The position numbers and the translations under genes were made by a program. Positions 10,141 to 33,895 of a DNA stretch of 38,882 bases are shown here, in pieces. How positions within the stretch are numbered: the first letter of the stretch is position 1; the number at the start of each line of letters is the position of its first letter. Under the pieces are notes generated by a model. It ran no database searches, was not told where the DNA came from, and saw only the letters and a program-made list of their open reading frames with translations. Source of the stretch: a virus; IMG/VR virus record IMGVR_UViG_3300031673_000199, positions 1-38,882 of that record; one strand, given 5' to 3'.

Positions 10141-10419
10141 ATGAAACAATATTTAGATTTATTACAAAACATTCTTGATAACGGAGTTGAAAAGGAATCA
10201 GGAAGAGAAAATATGCCGAATACGATAGGCATTTCTCATGGTGTGATTAAAATGGACTTACAAGAAGGCTTTCCTCTTTTAACTACAAAGAAAATGTATT
10301 TAAAGGGGATTATCCACGAATTACTCTGGTTCTTAAAAGGAGACGATACGTCTCTTGATGAAAGATATGATGAAATGTATAAAAAATATTTAAAGGAATG
10401 CGAAAATGCGCATAAATAA
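10141..10419 (+). CDS. thyA: Thymidylate synthase, N-terminal fragment (split gene)
   Basis: First part of a ThyA-type thymidylate synthase, which methylates dUMP to dTMP. The 92 residues match the family N-terminus: MKQYLDLLQNILDNG, a phosphate-loop Arg in SGRENMPNTIG, then LQEGFPLLTTKKMYLKG and IIHELLWFLKGD. The frame ends in a loop (KYLKECENAHK, stop) just where the family continues with the NIKYL-type segment. That continuation is found 1 kb downstream in the 11420-12412 gene, after an HNH endonuclease gene. Only 36 non-coding bases follow before the endonuclease, too few for a group I intron core. The fragment is therefore probably translated as a separate subunit. ATG start after an A/T leader. 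Confidence 0.85.
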   Translation: MKQYLDLLQNILDNGVEKESGRENMPNTIGISHGVIKMDLQEGFPLLTTKKMYLKGIIHELLWFLKGDDTSLDERYDEMYKKYLKECENAHK

Positions 10420-10430
10420 AAGTGGCTTTT

Positions 10431-10447
10431 AGATATATATAATAAAA
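10431..10447 (+). promoter_or_regulatory. Late-promoter-like element in front of the HNH endonuclease
   Basis: AGATATATATAATAAAA lies 8 bases upstream of the endonuclease ATG, within the inserted segment, so the cassette appears to carry its own promoter. Confidence 0.5.
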
Positions 10448-10455
10448 GAAACCAA

Positions 10456-11445
10456 ATGAACTTATGTAAGGAAATACAAGAGACTTTGTGTTTTTATAAA
10501 AACGGAAAGTATAATGTTTCATCAAGAAAATTAGTAAATATTGATAAGAATTTATTAGAAAATATAATTCAAACTACACATTTTTTAAATGGTAATAATC
10601 CTAAAATAATTGATAGAATTCGGTATATTTTACAAGGAAAAACTTGCATTAATACATGTTTAAATTGTCAAACTCCTATTATTGATATTAATAAAACTTT
10701 TTGTTCTGCGAAATGTAATAATAATTCAGAACAAACAAAAAATAAATTTAGAGAAAAATATAATAATCTATCAACCGATCAAAAAATAGAAAGAAAAAAT
10801 AAAACAGCTAATACATTTAATATAAAATATGGAGGATATACTTTACAGAGTCCCGAACTTAGAAAAAAAGTAAAAACAACACTAATAAAAAAATATGGCG
10901 TTGATCACCCGGTTAAAAATGACTCTATTAAGAGAAAAATAATAAATACATGGCTTACAAAATATGGTGTTGATAATCCATTTAAAGCTCAAATAATAAA
11001 AGAAAAAATAAAAGATATACTCATAGAAAAATATGGTGTAGAAAATCCGGGACAAATATATGATGAACATAAAAATGAAAAAAGAAAAAAAACAAAAATA
11101 GAAAGAGGGTTGATAATTCCAGACGAATTTCTCTCAGATTATAAAATTTATTTTAAAAAAGTAAAAAAAATTACCGAAACTACCTATAAAAAATACAAAA
11201 ATATTATAAATCCGTATAATTATGAAAGAGTCGTAAATGGTAAAAAAGGGTTTCAGTTAGATCATATTTATTCAATATTTGAAGGCTTCCTCAATAAAGT
11301 TGAACCGGAAATTATGGGTCATATAGAAAATCTTCAAATGATTAAATGGGAAGATAATCGTTTTAAAAGTAAAAAATGTAGTATAGATTTAATAGAATTG
11401 AAAAATAGAATCAAACTTTATGAAAATGAAAAAACAATATCTTAA
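10456..11445 (+). CDS. HNH homing endonuclease inserted in thymidylate synthase gene
   Basis: The 329-residue protein has an N-terminal zinc-finger-like module (CLNCQTP ... FCSAKC, about residues 70-90). It then has at least three KYGVD/E-N/H-type DNA-binding repeats at about 117-210 (for example KKYGVDHP, TKYGVDNPF, EKYGVENPGQ). A C-terminal HNH nuclease includes FQLDHIYSI, GHIENLQMI and EDNRFKSKK. Proteins of this design are free-standing phage homing endonucleases. It separates the two thymidylate synthase fragments, and its last 26 bases overlap the start of the downstream one, so translation is probably coupled. The first two modules are shared in style with the 13731-14684 endonuclease, which has a different nuclease domain. 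Confidence 0.82.
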   Translation: MNLCKEIQETLCFYKNGKYNVSSRKLVNIDKNLLENIIQTTHFLNGNNPKIIDRIRYILQGKTCINTCLNCQTPIIDINKTFCSAKCNNNSEQTKNKFREKYNNLSTDQKIERKNKTANTFNIKYGGYTLQSPELRKKVKTTLIKKYGVDHPVKNDSIKRKIINTWLTKYGVDNPFKAQIIKEKIKDILIEKYGVENPGQIYDEHKNEKRKKTKIERGLIIPDEFLSDYKIYFKKVKKITETTYKKYKNIINPYNYERVVNGKKGFQLDHIYSIFEGFLNKVEPEIMGHIENLQMIKWEDNRFKSKKCSIDLIELKNRIKLYENEKTIS

Positions 11446-12412
11446 TGCCGATGGAAGTCCTTTATCCAAAGAAGATTTTATAGAAAAGATAAAAAAGGAT
11501 CGTGAATTTTATGATATGTTTAAAATACCATTTAAGAGTGTAAATATAAAGTATTTAGTCGATAATGGTGTTCACATCTGGGATTCAGACGCTTACAGAT
11601 GGTACTTAAAATATTTTAAGGAATTGGATTATAGTAAGATACACACGTGTGTAGAATTAAGTTTAGAAGATTTTATAAAAACTATAAAAAACAATTCATA
11701 TGAAACTCTAAAATCTTGGTTTGGTTCAATTAGCGATTACGCTCTTGGCGATCTCGGTAAGGTTTATGGTTACCAATGGAGGAACCAGAACGGTGTCGAC
11801 CAAGTTCGAGATGTGATCGAGAGCCTTCGGGATAATCCATATAGTCGTTATCATATCATAGACGGATGGAACAAAGCTGATTTCGAAGATATGGCGCTCC
11901 CTCCTTGTCATTTACTGTATCAGTTTATTGTGAGACCGATAACATGGAGAGAAAGAGTTGATTATTGGTTTCATGTGAAAAAACCAAATAGAGATGTTGT
12001 TGATGCGTGGGACGAGGATTCAAAAGAAAAACAAGTTGAATATTTCAAAAATTATGTTCCTGAGTTCTATCTTGATCTTAATATGTACCAACGTTCATGT
12101 GACAGTGCTTGCGGGATTCCATTTAATTTGGCGTCAATGTCTCTTTTATTGGAAATATTTTCAAAGGCGTCTAATATGGTTCCTGGAGTCGCAACATGGA
12201 TAGGCGGTGATACCCATATCTATGTTAATCATATTGAAACTGTAAAAGAACAAATAAAAAGAACTCCATATAAACTTCCTAAGATTAAAATACTTAAAGA
12301 CATTAGAACACTTGAAGACATAGAGAAATTAACGATTGATGATTTTGAACTAAGTGATTATCAGAATCATTCTAAATTAGATTATGAACTTTTTGTTGGA
12401 TTAAAAAAATAA
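11420..12412 (+). CDS. thyA: Thymidylate synthase, C-terminal fragment (split gene)
   Basis: Catalytic part of the split ThyA. After about 45 residues of loop sequence it resumes the family at NIKYLVDNGVHIWD. It then carries DLGKVYGYQWR, the nucleophile segment ALPPCHLLYQF, YQRSCDSACGIPFNLAS and WIGGDTHIYVNH, which contain the dUMP and folate contacts. An extra stretch of about 45 residues sits between YQFIV and LDLNMYQRSCD, absent from E. coli ThyA. Two ATGs (11420, 11426) lie inside the end of the endonuclease gene. Residues that bind dUMP phosphate are divided between this and the upstream fragment, so activity would need both chains to assemble. Base composition around 11740-11900 is less AT-rich than its surroundings. 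Confidence 0.88.
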   Translation: MKMKKQYLNADGSPLSKEDFIEKIKKDREFYDMFKIPFKSVNIKYLVDNGVHIWDSDAYRWYLKYFKELDYSKIHTCVELSLEDFIKTIKNNSYETLKSWFGSISDYALGDLGKVYGYQWRNQNGVDQVRDVIESLRDNPYSRYHIIDGWNKADFEDMALPPCHLLYQFIVRPITWRERVDYWFHVKKPNRDVVDAWDEDSKEKQVEYFKNYVPEFYLDLNMYQRSCDSACGIPFNLASMSLLLEIFSKASNMVPGVATWIGGDTHIYVNHIETVKEQIKRTPYKLPKIKILKDIRTLEDIEKLTIDDFELSDYQNHSKLDYELFVGLKK

Positions 12413-17365: not shown

Positions 17366-19015
17366 TTAAGCTGATCCCATTACATCTTCTCTTTTTCCAA
17401 ATTTAACATTACCAAATGCTTTTCTAAACATATCCATAGCGGGTTTATATTTTACTTTTCCTTTAATATCTCCTGTTTCCTCGTGAATGTATGGGTGAGT
17501 TTCAACAATAAGCCATAAAGCTTTTGCTGCAAGAGATGCATTTCCAAGATCTATAAAATATTGAACATAATTTTCAAGTTGTTTAGCGCTTAATTTTATA
17601 TCTCTGGATGTTGAACATGCTGCACCGATTAAGGCATTAGATTGAGGTATATCATAACCAGTACCCTTTTGTGAAGGTTTAGGAGCTTTTGCGGGATTTT
17701 CAAATATCATTTTTATTTGCTCTGGTCTCCATCTTTCAAGAAGAGTTAAAAATGCCATAAAGGATTCTACTGTAGATGAGTGAAGTGTTCCGCCAATCAT
17801 ATTTTCTAAATCTGTTCTATTCCATACTATATCTCCATAATCTTGACATGCAGCCATTATATCTGAAAGCGCTTCCCATGTACGAGGAGTAGTATTAGCT
17901 TTAGCTTCACTATCAAAAAAATAAAAATGATCGCGGTTAAAGTCTATAAAATCTGTAATTCTTGGATCTATTTTCTTTCCTTTTGCCCAATCAATCCATT
18001 CATCAACACTTGGGACAAAATTGAAATGCTGAAAACGGTTTGCTAATGCTGCTCCAATTTCTACCTGTCCTCCTTCTGGATCGTCTAGAGGTCTATTTGT
18101 TGCGGCAACAATGGCCCATTTACTACCTAACACCTTATCACCAATAATTCTTTCATTAGCTAATTTTAAGCATGTATTTTGAACTTCTTCTTTAGCTCTT
18201 GAAAGTTCATCTAAAAATATAATACCCCCTTCTCCCCAATTTGCGATGTCATTTCTTTTTGTATTTTCTTCATCATCATCTGGAATAGGTTCATAAACAG
18301 GAAGCCAGTTTTTAGGAATATCTATAGCTTGTTGAGTTCCTGTGTCTGTTACAGTAACCACAGCTGGAAGTGTCCAGTCATCTGGCATCATCTTTGCAGT
18401 CTGTACATCAATTACACGGTGTCCTGGACCTAATGATTTAATAACGGCCTTAGTTATAGCAGTTTTTCCTATTCCGGGAGCTCCCCATAAAAGTGGAGGC
18501 ATAAGTTTTGGATTTTTAATTTGTAACATAATTCTTTTAATAAGAAAGTCAGAGTTAACATTTCTTATTTTATCCTCACCTGAATATTTAAGATTAATTT
18601 TTGCTTCATTAAGTTTTTTTCTAGATTTTTTATTTAATAAACTTTCTTTTAACTTTCCGATTCTTTTATTTCTAGCTGCTTGTTCTCTGTATTCTCGCTG
18701 AATTCTATCAAGTATACTTCTTCCCCCTTTTAAAGAAGAAAGTGATGGTTCAAGTTCTATATCAGAATCACTAGGAATATAGTTAACGTTATTTAATTCC
18801 CCATCTTTACATAATATTCCAATATTAACGGGGGCCATGGCAGCTATAGGCTTATTTTTATAAAATCCTACAAAAAACTTACCTATTTTTTTAAATACTC
18901 CTTTTACTAGATTTTTAATAGTATTAAACCAATCAGTAACTACTCCTTCGTTTAATATTTCAGTTTTTTTAATCTTTACAGCTTCTTCAATAGATTCAGG
19001 AACTAATTTTTTCAT
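17366..19015 (-). CDS. MoxR-type AAA+ ATPase
   Basis: 549 residues. The AAA+ module spans about 155-420: Walker A GAPGIGKT (178-185), Walker B IIFLDE (265-270), sensor-1 AATN (304-307) and an arginine finger in ALANRFQHF (R327). The order and sequence fit the MoxR/AAA_5 branch, whose members act as chaperones with VWA-domain partners. An N-terminal extension of about 150 residues is unusual. It opens with VPESIEEAV, has an amphipathic stretch (WFNTIKNLVKGVFKKIGKFF) and an Arg/Lys-rich linker. The VWA partner gene lies 37 bases upstream in the same operon. In this family the ATPase is thought to remodel or load complexes using the VWA protein as adaptor; the phage target is unknown. Confidence 0.85.
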   Translation of the reverse strand: MKKLVPESIEEAVKIKKTEILNEGVVTDWFNTIKNLVKGVFKKIGKFFVGFYKNKPIAAMAPVNIGILCKDGELNNVNYIPSDSDIELEPSLSSLKGGRSILDRIQREYREQAARNKRIGKLKESLLNKKSRKKLNEAKINLKYSGEDKIRNVNSDFLIKRIMLQIKNPKLMPPLLWGAPGIGKTAITKAVIKSLGPGHRVIDVQTAKMMPDDWTLPAVVTVTDTGTQQAIDIPKNWLPVYEPIPDDDEENTKRNDIANWGEGGIIFLDELSRAKEEVQNTCLKLANERIIGDKVLGSKWAIVAATNRPLDDPEGGQVEIGAALANRFQHFNFVPSVDEWIDWAKGKKIDPRITDFIDFNRDHFYFFDSEAKANTTPRTWEALSDIMAACQDYGDIVWNRTDLENMIGGTLHSSTVESFMAFLTLLERWRPEQIKMIFENPAKAPKPSQKGTGYDIPQSNALIGAACSTSRDIKLSAKQLENYVQYFIDLGNASLAAKALWLIVETHPYIHEETGDIKGKVKYKPAMDMFRKAFGNVKFGKREDVMGSA

Positions 19016-19033
19016 ATTTTAATTAATTATTTT

Positions 19034-19050
19034 TATTATTTTATATATTC
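19034..19050 (-). promoter_or_regulatory. Late-promoter-like element upstream of MoxR gene
   Basis: On the minus strand this reads GAATATATAAAATAATA, about 18 bases before the ATPase start and inside the gap to the VWA gene. Confidence 0.5.
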
Positions 19051-19052
19051 TT

Positions 19053-20747
19053 TTACATATCGCCAGTAGATGTCTTAATTACTCTTCCAAATGGAGCTTC
19101 CCAATCATAATTATCATAAATTACCCATATGAATTTTCTATAATATTTTGGAACTTTTGGATTAGAAGCATATCCGTCTGTTAAAAATATACATAAATTT
19201 ATTGCGTCGTTATAATTACTTTTGATCCAATCTAATGGCGGCTGAAAATTTGTTCCACCCCCACCTTTTATATTTTTAGGTTTCCAAACTTTTGTTCCTT
19301 GTTTAATTGTTTGCACAGATCCTGGATCAACACCGTCATCAAAGAAAATTATAGTTATTTGTTTAACTTTTTTTGCAAATATAATATCATTTACTTCTCC
19401 TATTATTCTTTCAAATGTATCTCCATGAAACATAGATCCTGAAACATCTACAGCAACAACAATTTTTTTGATTGCATCTGTTTTAGGTTTAAGACCACGT
19501 TTAAGATATTCCGCACTTTTATATAAATGTTTCTTTGCTCCTATTCTATACTGTTTTTCCGGAGAAAGAGCAGTTCCCACGTATACTTTTAATTGTGATT
19601 TCCAATCTACAGTTCCCTTTAAAAGTTTTCCTAATTTATTTATTAGCGCATCTCCTCTTCCTCCTCCGGCTTGTTTTATTTTTTGTGCTGCTTTTTGCAT
19701 TTCTTTAGCGTTAGCTTCCCATTTAGCTCTACCTTGTTCTCCTGCTCTCATTTCTTCTTCGTCATATCCTGAAGCTCGAGCTATTTGTTCTCCTGTTCTA
19801 CTATCAAAAAATCCTCCAGCCTGTCCTCTATCTGAATTTTTTAATCTTTCAGCTAAACCTCGTTGATCATTAGTTAAGCCTGTTTTTGGATCTTGATCCG
19901 TTTTCATTGTTCCAGTAGATTTGGCAATTTTTTTGGCCGTTTCTTTATCATCTGCAGTTGATCCGGTTCCAGAACTTTGTTTATCTTTTTGTCCTGGTTG
20001 TCCTTGCTGACCTTGCTGACCTTGCTGACCTGGTTGTCCTGGTTGCCCTGGTTGCCCGGGTTGTCCTTGCTGACTTGGTTGTCCTGGTTGCCCAGGTTGT
20101 CCTTGTTTACCTACTTGACCCATACCCGGAGGCGGCTGCGGTAATTTTGGTGGATTTTTAATAATATCTTGATAAATTTGTTCAACAGCCATATTTAAAT
20201 ATTTTTCATCATACATTCCCTTTAATTCTTTAACTACAAAATCTTTATCGAAATCATCAGTAGTATCAACAATAATAGTATTAATTTCATAATCTCCTGC
20301 AATATTAAATGTTTCATTATCAAAACCTTCACCTCTTTCCATGTGCATTAATATACAATGATAAATTTCATGAATTAAAACAAAAATTTTTCCCATCCAA
20401 GATAAACTATCTGCAAATTCTGGATTAACGAATAATCTAACGCCATCTGTGGCCATTGTAGGTATTACCCATGTATAAATAATAGGATCAAATTCATGTA
20501 CGTATGGTCTATAAAGAGGAGATTGTGTAACGATTTTATATTTTGCGGCCTCCATATCTTGTTTAACTTTTTTAACATTTATAATTTTACCTTTAGTATA
20601 AGGAGACTCTACACTATCCATATCTTCTAGTTTAGTTATAGATGGAATATTTTCATTTTGTTCTAAAATAGGTCGAGATTTCAAACTTTTTATATATTTT
20701 ACTTCATCGATGAAATCGGTAAGTGAAGGATAAAATTCTTTATTCAT
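19053..20747 (-). CDS. Metallopeptidase-like/VWA protein, partner of MoxR ATPase (DUF2201-like)
   Basis: 564 residues. The N-terminal domain has a zinc-peptidase-like motif HEIYH (126-130), followed by HCILMH and NIAGDYEIN (148-156), as in DUF2201-type putative metallopeptidases. A linker at 207-253 is a collagen-like run of Gly-Gln-Pro/Gly-Gln-Gln triplets. The C-terminal VWA domain (about 425-564) has the metal-binding DVSGS (434-438), IIFFDDGVD, a GGGGTNF turn and FLTDGY. The pairing with a MoxR ATPase is standard for this family. Whether the peptidase site is active is unknown. Starts with ATG 15 bases after the upstream repeat-protein gene. Confidence 0.82.
   Translation of the reverse strand: MNKEFYPSLTDFIDEVKYIKSLKSRPILEQNENIPSITKLEDMDSVESPYTKGKIINVKKVKQDMEAAKYKIVTQSPLYRPYVHEFDPIIYTWVIPTMATDGVRLFVNPEFADSLSWMGKIFVLIHEIYHCILMHMERGEGFDNETFNIAGDYEINTIIVDTTDDFDKDFVVKELKGMYDEKYLNMAVEQIYQDIIKNPPKLPQPPPGMGQVGKQGQPGQPGQPSQQGQPGQPGQPGQPGQQGQQGQQGQPGQKDKQSSGTGSTADDKETAKKIAKSTGTMKTDQDPKTGLTNDQRGLAERLKNSDRGQAGGFFDSRTGEQIARASGYDEEEMRAGEQGRAKWEANAKEMQKAAQKIKQAGGGRGDALINKLGKLLKGTVDWKSQLKVYVGTALSPEKQYRIGAKKHLYKSAEYLKRGLKPKTDAIKKIVVAVDVSGSMFHGDTFERIIGEVNDIIFAKKVKQITIIFFDDGVDPGSVQTIKQGTKVWKPKNIKGGGGTNFQPPLDWIKSNYNDAINLCIFLTDGYASNPKVPKYYRKFIWVIYDNYDWEAPFGRVIKTSTGDM
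19989..20129 (-). repeat. Collagen-like Gly-X-Y tandem repeat within the VWA gene
   Basis: Imperfect nine-base units coding for GQP or GQQ make about 14 consecutive Gly-X-Y triplets between the peptidase-like and VWA domains. Such runs expand and contract easily. Confidence 0.85.
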
Positions 20748-31161: not shown

Positions 31162-31188
31162 AAAAAAACCAGCACTGAGGCTGCTGGT
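31162..31188 (-). terminator. Intrinsic terminator of the tmRNA-like gene
   Basis: Minus-strand stem ACCAGCA / TGCTGGT with a seven-base loop followed by seven T's. It closes the tmRNA-like transcript. Confidence 0.85.
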
Positions 31189-31445
31189 AAATCTCCATCG
31201 AATGAGTGCTTCTTAAGCAGCCATACGATATTCGTAACTATTTTCGCCGTTTACATGCGTTATTAAAACTATCTTTACTACTTCCTTATTGCTGTCAAGT
31301 CTAAGTCATCCCCATCTTGGTTGATTTGCTGGTTCAACCAGGAAAACCTTTGTGCACTCCCTACTAAAGGTAAAGAGAATGTGGAGATGCCGGTTTCCGC
31401 CACCGGGTCCAGTCAACAGTCTCTCGTAAATAGCTCTATTTCTAA
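31189..31445 (-). ncRNA. ssrA: tmRNA (ssrA), circularly permuted gene
   Basis: Ribosome-rescue RNA read on the minus strand. The acceptor piece comes first: a T-arm (31406-31390, 5-base stem CCGGT/ACCGG, 7-base loop), then the 3' acceptor strand CATCTCC (31389-31383) and discriminator A (31382). After a spacer of about 68 bases with a hairpin (31371-31346) comes the coding piece. It starts GGGGATG (31313-31307) and continues ACTTAGACTTGACAGC, like tmRNA 5' ends. GGGGATG pairs fully with CATCTCC, with G3-U70 at the third pair, the alanyl-tRNA synthetase signal. A tag frame from 31254 encodes VNGENSYEYRMAA and TAA (31213), with the stop in a small hairpin (31219-31207). No acceptor match exists downstream of the tag, so the gene order is permuted. 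CCA is not encoded. The region is clearly less AT-rich than its surroundings. Ends are approximate. Confidence 0.82.
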
Positions 31446-31489
31446 AGCGCGCTTTAATATATCTTATATATTTTTGTTATATATAACAA
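31443..31489 (-). promoter_or_regulatory. Probable promoter region of the tmRNA-like gene with two palindromes
   Basis: Upstream of the RNA lie a 16-base perfect palindrome (TTGTTATATATAACAA, 31474-31489) and a 14-base one (TAAAGCGCGCTTTA, 31443-31456). On the minus strand TTGTTA and TAAGAT are 17 bases apart, as in a sigma-70 promoter. The late element is not present in its usual form. Confidence 0.4.
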
Positions 31490-31543
31490 TATAATACAAA
31501 AAACATATTTTGATACTATATATTTGTTAAAGTTCTGTTAAAC

Positions 31544-32104: not shown

Positions 32105-33895
32105 TTATACACCTAATTCAGTTTCTCCTCCTTCTGGTTCTGGTCCAAGTTCTGCCCCGGGTTCTTCAGGAGCTCCACCGCCAAGTTCTTCACCCCCTCC
32201 AAATTCTCCTCCACCGAAATCCATTCCACTCATATCTCCACCCATTCCTTCTTCTCCTTCACCTTTAGCAGCATTAATACGCTTAATTGCATCACTAATA
32301 CGCTTAAGTTGTTCTTTTCTTTCTTTCTTATATCTTGCATTAAGTTTCATATCTTCATCTGTAAAATCCATGTATTTTTCAACTAAAAATTTAGGGTCAA
32401 AATACATGCCTTCTGTTGTTATCTCGCCCTCAGTATTAACCTCATATTGTCTTATTCCCATAAGTGTATTAACTATTTCTGCACCTTTATTCGCAATATC
32501 TCGTTTTTTAGCTTCAGTAAATAAATTTTCTTCAGTAAATTCTAGGCCAACAGCGCCCCTAAGTGATTTATCACTCATGAATTCTGGATGTTTAAGACAA
32601 AATTGAATCCAAGTAGGTTTTAATAATATCTCTTGAAGTATCGTACGAATTCTATTAATAAAATAATTAAATCTAATTTCTTCTCTTGCTATTCCTTCTC
32701 CACCTGTAGACCAATTTCCACCACCACTTTCTCCTTCTCCACCTATTGATATAAATCTATCTTTAGGAATTTTTGTCTCAATAATAAATCTTCTCCAAAA
32801 ATAATCAAGCGCCATAGTTCCAGAAAGATCATATCCTTTAGGTTCAAACGAATCAATTTCTACTTGAGATCCTTCTTTTGAAGGAAGTATATATTGTTTT
32901 GCAAATGAAAAATTTGGTGTGCCGTTAATTGTTACTTCACCACTGTCATAATTTATAGTAACATCTTCTTTATACATACCTCTTAATTCAGAAAGTCTAG
33001 TTCTTGCTCTTACTTCTGATTGTGTTCCAATTGGAACAATAATTTTCATTCTATATTGTGAGTTAATAACATTCCAAATGATACGTGAGTTTTCCATTGT
33101 ACGAAGCATGTTAAATGCTCTAACTAATCTTTCAACATATGATAATCTTGAAATGAAATTTCCTCTTGCCCAAGAAATATAAATTATGTTTCCATCGACT
33201 AATTCTCTTTGTTTTTCTGAATCTCCTCTAAATTGAATCCATACTCGATATTCATTTTCATTTTCATCTTTACGGATTTCTGGTTCAAGAGTAACAGGAT
33301 CAAGTTCTTTAAATCCTAATATATTTTTTGCAGGTTCACTTTCTTCTCCATCATAAATAATTTCAAATGCAAGAAATCCATCAATCAAGAATTTTTTTGC
33401 ATAATGCCAACCATCATGTCCTTGATTGAATCCATATGCATAATATACTTTTTTATATGCTTCATTAAGATCATCTACTATTTCCTTGGCCTTTTCAGCT
33501 TTAAGAACTGATTTAAGTTTTTTCGTATTAGGATATGCAAAAAAGTTAGCATCATCTTGAATGATAGTTTCATCTGCAATAACTTCAATAACATGTTCAA
33601 TTTCTCCATTCATTGCAAATCTACGAAGAAAATCTCTTCTTGTAGGATACTCTTTATCAAAAAAAGCAATAAACTCTTTTTGCCCAATATCCATTCCAGC
33701 GACTAATTGATGTTGTCCAAAAAGACTGTACATCGAATCTTCTTGAGTTTCTGTGATACCAATTGCTTTTGATTGTCGTATTACTTTTTGATCAAATTTC
33801 ATACCCATTACCGAAAGATAACGAATATTACGTTGTATATTATCTAGAAAGGAACGAGGTCCTCTGTCGAGATTTCGCACTGAAAAGCCAGCCAT
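32105..33895 (-). CDS. Portal protein (T4 gp20-like)
   Basis: Forms the dodecameric ring at the head vertex through which DNA enters and leaves. 596 residues, compared with 524 in T4. The core follows gp20: RRDFLRRFAMNGEIEHVIE, a VIADETII helix, FLIDGFLAFEIIYD, a FKELDPVTLEPEI strand, SYVERLVRAFNMLRTMENS, and LDYFWRRFIIETKIPKDR near the C-terminal barrel. The C-terminal about 50 residues are a Gly/Glu-rich tail (GGGEFGGGEELGGG) beyond the T4 end. It is followed on the minus strand by small membrane genes and preceded by a late-promoter-like element. Confidence 0.92.
   Translation of the reverse strand: MAGFSVRNLDRGPRSFLDNIQRNIRYLSVMGMKFDQKVIRQSKAIGITETQEDSMYSLFGQHQLVAGMDIGQKEFIAFFDKEYPTRRDFLRRFAMNGEIEHVIEVIADETIIQDDANFFAYPNTKKLKSVLKAEKAKEIVDDLNEAYKKVYYAYGFNQGHDGWHYAKKFLIDGFLAFEIIYDGEESEPAKNILGFKELDPVTLEPEIRKDENENEYRVWIQFRGDSEKQRELVDGNIIYISWARGNFISRLSYVERLVRAFNMLRTMENSRIIWNVINSQYRMKIIVPIGTQSEVRARTRLSELRGMYKEDVTINYDSGEVTINGTPNFSFAKQYILPSKEGSQVEIDSFEPKGYDLSGTMALDYFWRRFIIETKIPKDRFISIGGEGESGGGNWSTGGEGIAREEIRFNYFINRIRTILQEILLKPTWIQFCLKHPEFMSDKSLRGAVGLEFTEENLFTEAKKRDIANKGAEIVNTLMGIRQYEVNTEGEITTEGMYFDPKFLVEKYMDFTDEDMKLNARYKKERKEQLKRISDAIKRINAAKGEGEEGMGGDMSGMDFGGGEFGGGEELGGGAPEEPGAELGPEPEGGETELGV

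Follow-up and report, generated by a model that had tools for sequence, protein, structure and literature searches.

A circularly permuted tmRNA gene in a large T4-like phage with a probable Bacteroidota host

Introduction

Does a phage whose likely hosts belong to the Bacteroidota carry a ribosome-rescue RNA of the two-piece type, and where could such a gene have come from? The question arises from an earlier note, made from sequence alone, on a viral DNA of 38,882 nucleotides (record IMGVR_UViG_3300031673_000199; this entire stretch is referred to below as the window), which read a phage-encoded circularly permuted tmRNA gene on the minus strand at 31189-31445.

Three bacterial lineages are known to have two-piece tmRNA (PMC9004378, PMC11915505). 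The tmRNA database of PMC11915505, with 97,179 sequences, includes 79 from phages, and the portion of PMC7162821 that reports tmRNA and SmpB in huge phages holds no description of the form of these tmRNAs. As a kind, two-piece phage tmRNA is already known: such RNAs are on record for 53 phage genomes, of which 50 are marine or aquatic, and those of pelagiphages and methylophages were presented as relatives of alphaproteobacterial tmRNA (PMC9004378). The novelty claimed for the gene has to be moderated accordingly, although our literature search found no description of a permuted tmRNA in a Bacteroidota phage.

Results

Anatomy of the gene

Judged by covariance model and letters, the minus strand of the window encodes a phage circularly permuted tmRNA gene. 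Positions 31430-31213 (-) match the Rfam model RF04321 (tmRNA_permuted) with 59.8 bits against a cut-off of 47 (E 2.7e-9 over the whole window); this check had been proposed together with the original claim, which it bears out. From 31448 to 31162 (-) the elements are hairpin, P2 3' strands, T-arm, acceptor 3' strand with A73, spacer, acceptor 5' strand, D-loop, P2 5' strands, tag and terminator (Table 1), and all those listed in the earlier note were found on this strand in the order given there. Its claim that the 5' end GGGGATG pairs fully with the acceptor strand upstream, with G-U as the third pair, was likewise confirmed (7/7 pairs). The extent it gave is right for the core but not for the start of the gene, since the 5' hairpin reaches 31448, and its anatomy, sound in the elements, overlooked that the T-loop GGCGGAA and the D-loop UAG are non-canonical (canonical UUCGA and UGG).

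Table 1. Features of the permuted tmRNA locus in the window
Feature	Position	Strand	Basis
T4-like portal protein gene, upstream; anchor of the conserved locus	32105..33895	-	PHROG 213, E 5.6e-47
Conserved A+T-rich leader, promoter-like (candidate)	31487..31542	-	aligned in relatives
Hairpin GCUUUA-GAAA-UAGAGC near 5' end of acceptor piece	31433..31448	-	minimum-free-energy fold
P2 3' strands UUUAC + GUUGACUG	31410..31430	-	RF04321 alignment
T-arm: stem CCGGU/ACCGG, loop GGCGGAA (non-canonical)	31390..31406	-	RF04321 alignment, pair counts
Acceptor 3' strand CAUCUCC + discriminator A73; CCA not encoded	31382..31389	-	RF04321, pair counts
Intervening spacer, 68 nt, predicted removal	31314..31381	-	fold, sequence inspection
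6-bp hairpin within the spacer	31318..31340	-	
Acceptor 5' strand GGGGAUG; partner 31383-31389; G3-U70 is the alanyl-tRNA synthetase identity pair	31307..31313	-	RF04321, pair counts
D-loop region ACUUAGACUUGAC; UAG replaces UGG	31294..31306	-	RF04321
P2 5' strands: CAGCAAU 31288-31294; GUAAA inside 31269-31278	31269..31294	-	RF04321, pair counts
Tag frame GENSYEYRMAA*, hydrophobic end, resume context UAAAC	31213..31248	-	RF04321, sequence inspection
P5-like helix UGCU/AGCA at the tag stop codon	31208..31222	-	sequence inspection, alignment of relatives
Intrinsic terminator	31162..31188	-	1 found vs 0.1 expected from shuffles

The combination of T-stem, acceptor and G3-U70 by itself has a single occurrence in the window, against two in a set of 20 shuffled windows. 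In its minimum-free-energy fold the precursor forms the 5' hairpin, the P2 strands, the T-arm, an acceptor stem from which the spacer loops out, and the terminator; the folding energy is not exceptional (z -1.04). The standard one-piece model RF00023 has no match in the window (its positive control matched in 14/14 genomes), and the alphaproteobacterial two-piece model RF01849 remains below its cut-off of 50, with 46.2 bits over the tRNA-like domain only (49.8 in the relative L001). ARAGORN, also proposed as a check, made no call in the window, probably because of the T-loop GGCGGAA, but it did call permuted tmRNAs in many relatives.

Sigma-70 consensus matches in the leader of the window are no more frequent than expected by chance, so a promoter-like reading of this conserved segment is suggestive at best. 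A boxA-like leader (GTTCTTTRANATATTG / GTTCTTTAARATATTG) precedes the tmRNA in L002 and L003 and, by eye, in L004, L005 and L018; it is absent from the window. A motif similar to this phage leader is found in the 16S-23S spacer of one Bacteroidota rRNA operon (L223).

The locus in related phages

A first search with the portal protein led to 18 related viral contigs, among which ARAGORN found a permuted tmRNA in 7 and RF04321 scored above cut-off in 8 of the 11 scanned. In a wider portal search 80 loci were kept, and those with enough sequence downstream of the portal were considered informative. The tmRNA lies downstream of the portal gene in 35/41 informative contigs with a portal identity of at least 60%, and in 0/25 of those at 43-47% identity; several contigs are near-duplicates, so the two ratios are not independent counts. 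ARAGORN called the gene in 22 of the 35 gene-bearing contigs and missed it in 13, which constitutes a practical gap in the detection of such phage genes.

The gene order is largely kept: head closure, a 233-aa ORF, portal, usually a 131-aa ORF, tmRNA, a 147-aa ORF and a 173-aa ORF. In relatives without the tmRNA the flanking ORFs adjoin each other. Five of the six gene-less informative relatives were rescanned with lax Rfam thresholds, again with no tmRNA found, and the sixth (L267) matches L266 in its portal and in the layout of the neighbouring genes; the existence of these six indicates that the gene is dispensable. A nucleotide search of named phages with the window gene gave chance matches only.

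Since contigs of the clade extend up to 405 kb, the window probably represents part of a huge-phage genome. It encodes a T9SS C-terminal sorting domain (E 4e-10) that is also present in two relatives, and the named portal relatives include Lak (Prevotella), Tenacibaculum and Chryseobacterium phages, yet also one phage listed under Sphingomonas. The Bacteroidota host assumed in the earlier note is thus supported rather than proven, and the window phage is probably a large T4-like phage infecting Bacteroidota.

Two other regions of the window are worth recording. At 10141-12412 (+) a thymidylate synthase gene is apparently split into a 92-aa ORF containing ...LLWFLKGD and, further on, an ORF containing NIKYLVDNGVHIW (Pfam Thymidylat_synt). 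A 329-aa endonuclease-like ORF, possibly a homing element, lies between the two parts, and Rfam reported no group I intron at cut-off at this locus. At 17366-20747 (-) an AAA ATPase (AAA_5) adjoins a DUF2201 metallopeptidase/VWA protein with collagen-like repeats.

Permuted tmRNA in Bacteroidota genomes

One-piece tmRNA was found above cut-off in 96/99 Bacteroidota genomes, which makes it less obvious why a phage copy would be needed. The permuted form scored above cut-off in 1/395 genomes, in a screen whose first pass scored few candidates per genome and so may have missed weak genes. This lone copy (L178 and L220; G261:C1:986035-986308 (-)) has the tag GKVIQMNNAPVRLAA, different from that of the window, adjoins tRNA-Met and tRNA-Ile, and is located near ORFs read as phage-type DNA polymerase and helicase; the four small ORFs neighbouring it have no PHROG match. 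The phage tag region, searched for as a pattern in bacterial genomes, gave no match.

Selection on pairing and tag

The acceptor pairing, whose loss in related phages would have told against the gene, is kept in every copy, with compensatory changes: in 14 copies for which this pairing was not a selection criterion, all 7 pairs are present in 14/14, in four different stems. An alignment of 13 copies covering the acceptor, T-stem and P2a (21 pairs) has 94.5% of cells paired, with both-sided changes at 14/21 pairs and 35 double-changed cells vs 8.3 in shuffles; when the partners are slid, pairing drops to 38-47%. In the same alignment the T-stem is 100% paired, with both-sided changes at 5/5 pairs, and the P2 helix has 87% of cells paired and both-sided changes at 7/9 pairs. 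U70 stands opposite G3 in 32/32 distinct copies, a set whose selection favoured full pairing and GGG. Among these 32 the spacer ranges from 15 to 186 nt and CCA is encoded in one.

The tags are open, mostly of 10-12 residues (10-14 in the ARAGORN calls), and end in AA or VA, mostly MAA, often after UAAAC. The 5' hairpin occupies the same site in relatives with different stem letters and loops that are mostly GNRA or UNCG (by eye), and the terminator stem is likewise the same in other letters. It is most improbable that the gene is a non-functional relic or a chance structure. Some relatives lack it and ARAGORN misses the window copy, as might be expected of a relic, but three helices show compensatory changes, and an open tag and a terminator are kept even in strongly diverged copies.

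Variable elbow and shared spacers

Most copies combine a T-loop UUCGANN with a D-loop UGG. A D-loop UAG goes with the T-loop GGCGGAA in the window and in L001, and with GGCAGAA in L019; other elbows occur in single copies (L025, AGGCAUA with UGC; L026, CUCGCC with UGA; L271, T-loop AUCAUA). Within the UAG group C56 and G19 are constant, and positions 18-55 and 54-58 change together, as seen by eye in few copies and not as tested covariation.

Some spacers are common to copies whose tRNA-like domains differ in type. Over 33 alignment columns those of L001 and L019 agree except for one mismatch and one gap; this stretch is also present in L274, a copy with a canonical T-loop, and the window spacer is related to those of L272 and L006; 0 shuffled pairs in 3000 reached the scores of shared spacers (L001 equals L239, L019 equals L268 and L006 equals L244). 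The element common to L001, L019 and L274, CGCTAAyCCGTCGCGTTAGTACGGTTTTT, could form a small pseudoknot or a terminator-like fold. In a permuted gene the spacer is flanked directly by T-arm and D-arm, so that a single exchange could replace the whole tRNA-like domain, and spacer and domain may have been swapped between phages as a unit.

Discussion

Function of the phage tmRNA

The circularly permuted tmRNA gene of the window is very probably functional and belongs to a large T4-like phage with a probable Bacteroidota host. The form of the gene, its pairings, the conserved frame, the conservation itself and the placement in a phage clade are direct observations. From the anatomy and the Caulobacter precedent (cited in PMC3985003) we infer the processing, charging and tagging of the RNA; its use of SmpB and its benefit to the phage are likewise predicted from sequence.

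A single transcript would end at the terminator past the tag. Removal of the 68-nt spacer would fall to the host's RNase P and 3' processing enzymes; the resulting acceptor and coding pieces would stay joined through the acceptor stem and P2, and the host would add CCA. Alanyl-tRNA synthetase would then charge the RNA via G3-U70, and ribosomes stalled on broken messages would receive it through host SmpB. Translation, resumed at GGC, would append GENSYEYRMAA, by which the ribosome would be freed and the peptide marked for proteolysis. Reliance on host SmpB is suggested by a search of 15 records, many of them fragmentary, in which SmpB was not found. Ordinary trans-translation is the most likely role, with SmpB from the host and the RNA contributed by the phage when messages break during infection.

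It is improbable that the RNA acts instead as a decoy, i.e. that a tmRNA-like fold titrates SmpB or alanyl-tRNA synthetase and blocks host ribosome rescue, as has been proposed for an RNA of mycobacteriophage DS6A that has a tRNA-like domain only. An RNA consisting of a tRNA-like domain only has been reported as a tmRNA inhibitor (PMC4131195, PMC11915505), and this domain is the most strictly paired part of the phage gene, with an unusual and variable elbow. A decoy, however, needs no tag, and the tag-less decoy of the DS6A type lacks the coding sequence, whereas the window copy has a conserved tag and nearly all copies keep an open tag, its stop codon and the preceding TAAAC.

Relation to known tmRNAs

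The phage gene can be set beside several known systems. With the permuted tmRNAs of Alphaproteobacteria, Betaproteobacteria and Cyanobacteria (RF04321) it has in common the order acceptor piece, spacer, coding piece, the 7-bp acceptor with G3-U70, the P2 helix between the pieces and the tag frame. The phage copies differ from these bacterial genes in being viral and Bacteroidota-associated, in scoring below the cut-offs of the alpha-, beta- and cyanobacterial models, and in having a Bacteroidota-like tag and a CCA that is usually unencoded. Permuted tmRNAs in large myoviruses are also exemplified by Mosig and Melnitz (PMC9004378); in Mosig, however, CCA is encoded and the tag is GEDNFALAA, and the window clade represents another phage clade with another tag and locus.

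Huge phages related to the window clade by their portal, the Lak phages among them, have a one-piece tmRNA. In the Lak phages L035 and L036 this gene (in RF00023 order) lies directly upstream of the portal, whereas in the window clade it is permuted and lies downstream. Some of these one-piece tags end in RMAA (GNNAEMRMAA in LR756500, DDEIDFRMAA in Lak-A2). The one-piece tmRNAs of Bacteroidota hosts resemble the phage gene in the style of their tags, e.g. DNNYSYRLAA, GDNFGYRMAA and GENNYALAA (the last enriched by the search pattern), but they are not permuted, are longer (about 350-400 nt) and have more structure past the tag. A signature of UUUGACAGC and GUUUGGAC in the one-piece tmRNAs of Flavobacteria and their relatives is common to several phage copies.

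Origin of the permutation

The resemblance to Bacteroidota genes bears on how the phage gene became permuted. Our tentative reading, to which we give somewhat less than an even chance, is that tmRNA became permuted once more, independently of the three bacterial lineages, within or close to the huge phages of Bacteroidota and from a one-piece tmRNA of Bacteroidota type, and that the tRNA-like domain and spacer were then exchanged as a cassette, including the change of elbow from UUCGA/UGG to the GGC-type/UAG.

Rather unlikely, by comparison, is the derivation of the gene, or at least of the tRNA-like half in the window, from a known two-piece lineage such as the Alphaproteobacteria; this concerns origin and is compatible with function as a tmRNA. 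The window itself speaks for such a source: its best clan match is alpha_tmRNA (46.2 bits, E 6.5e-12), its GGCGG T-loop and UAG D-loop are those of the alphaproteobacterial Rfam consensus, and its tRNA-like domain has an identity of 0.66 to that consensus vs 0.52 to 0.59 for Bacteroidota. Across the copies, however, no clade-specific model reaches cut-off, and the best model varies from copy to copy (alpha, beta, cyano or standard). The window tag resembles Bacteroidota tags, and a profile of the coding piece gives Bacteroidota one-piece tmRNAs up to 25.9 bits vs 9.0 for a Pelagibacter-phage permuted tmRNA (alpha-, beta- and cyanobacterial tmRNAs were represented in these comparisons by Rfam consensus lines and one pelagiphage gene).

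The P2 letters point in the same direction. L001, the copy closest to the window, shares UUGACAG and GUUUGGAC with relatives that have a canonical T-loop, and the same letters occur in one-piece tmRNAs of Flavobacteria; several phage copies share UUUGACAG as well as GUUUGGAC with these flavobacterial genes. With P2 letters of the same kind in canonical-loop relatives, the alpha-like elbow of the window speaks less strongly for an alphaproteobacterial source. The tree built from the tRNA-like domain (60 columns) lacked resolution and is given no weight on origin. A separate permutation is favoured because of the one-piece tmRNAs in related huge phages, the Bacteroidota-like tags and P2 letters, the coding-piece scores and the lack of a clade-specific model at cut-off.

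The phage clade, the variable tRNA elbow (GGCGGAA/UAG in the window) and the mosaic exchange of spacers are new. A permutation origin distinct from the three bacterial ones may be added to these, as hinted by the Bacteroidota-like tag and P2 signatures. With this gene a split, permuted ribosome-rescue RNA enters a clade of viruses while their likely hosts have one-piece tmRNA, and since layout and tag differ, host and phage tmRNAs can be distinguished in infected cells. The clade provides a natural series for how RNA genes become permuted, and for whether permutation allows the tRNA-like half to be exchanged as a unit.
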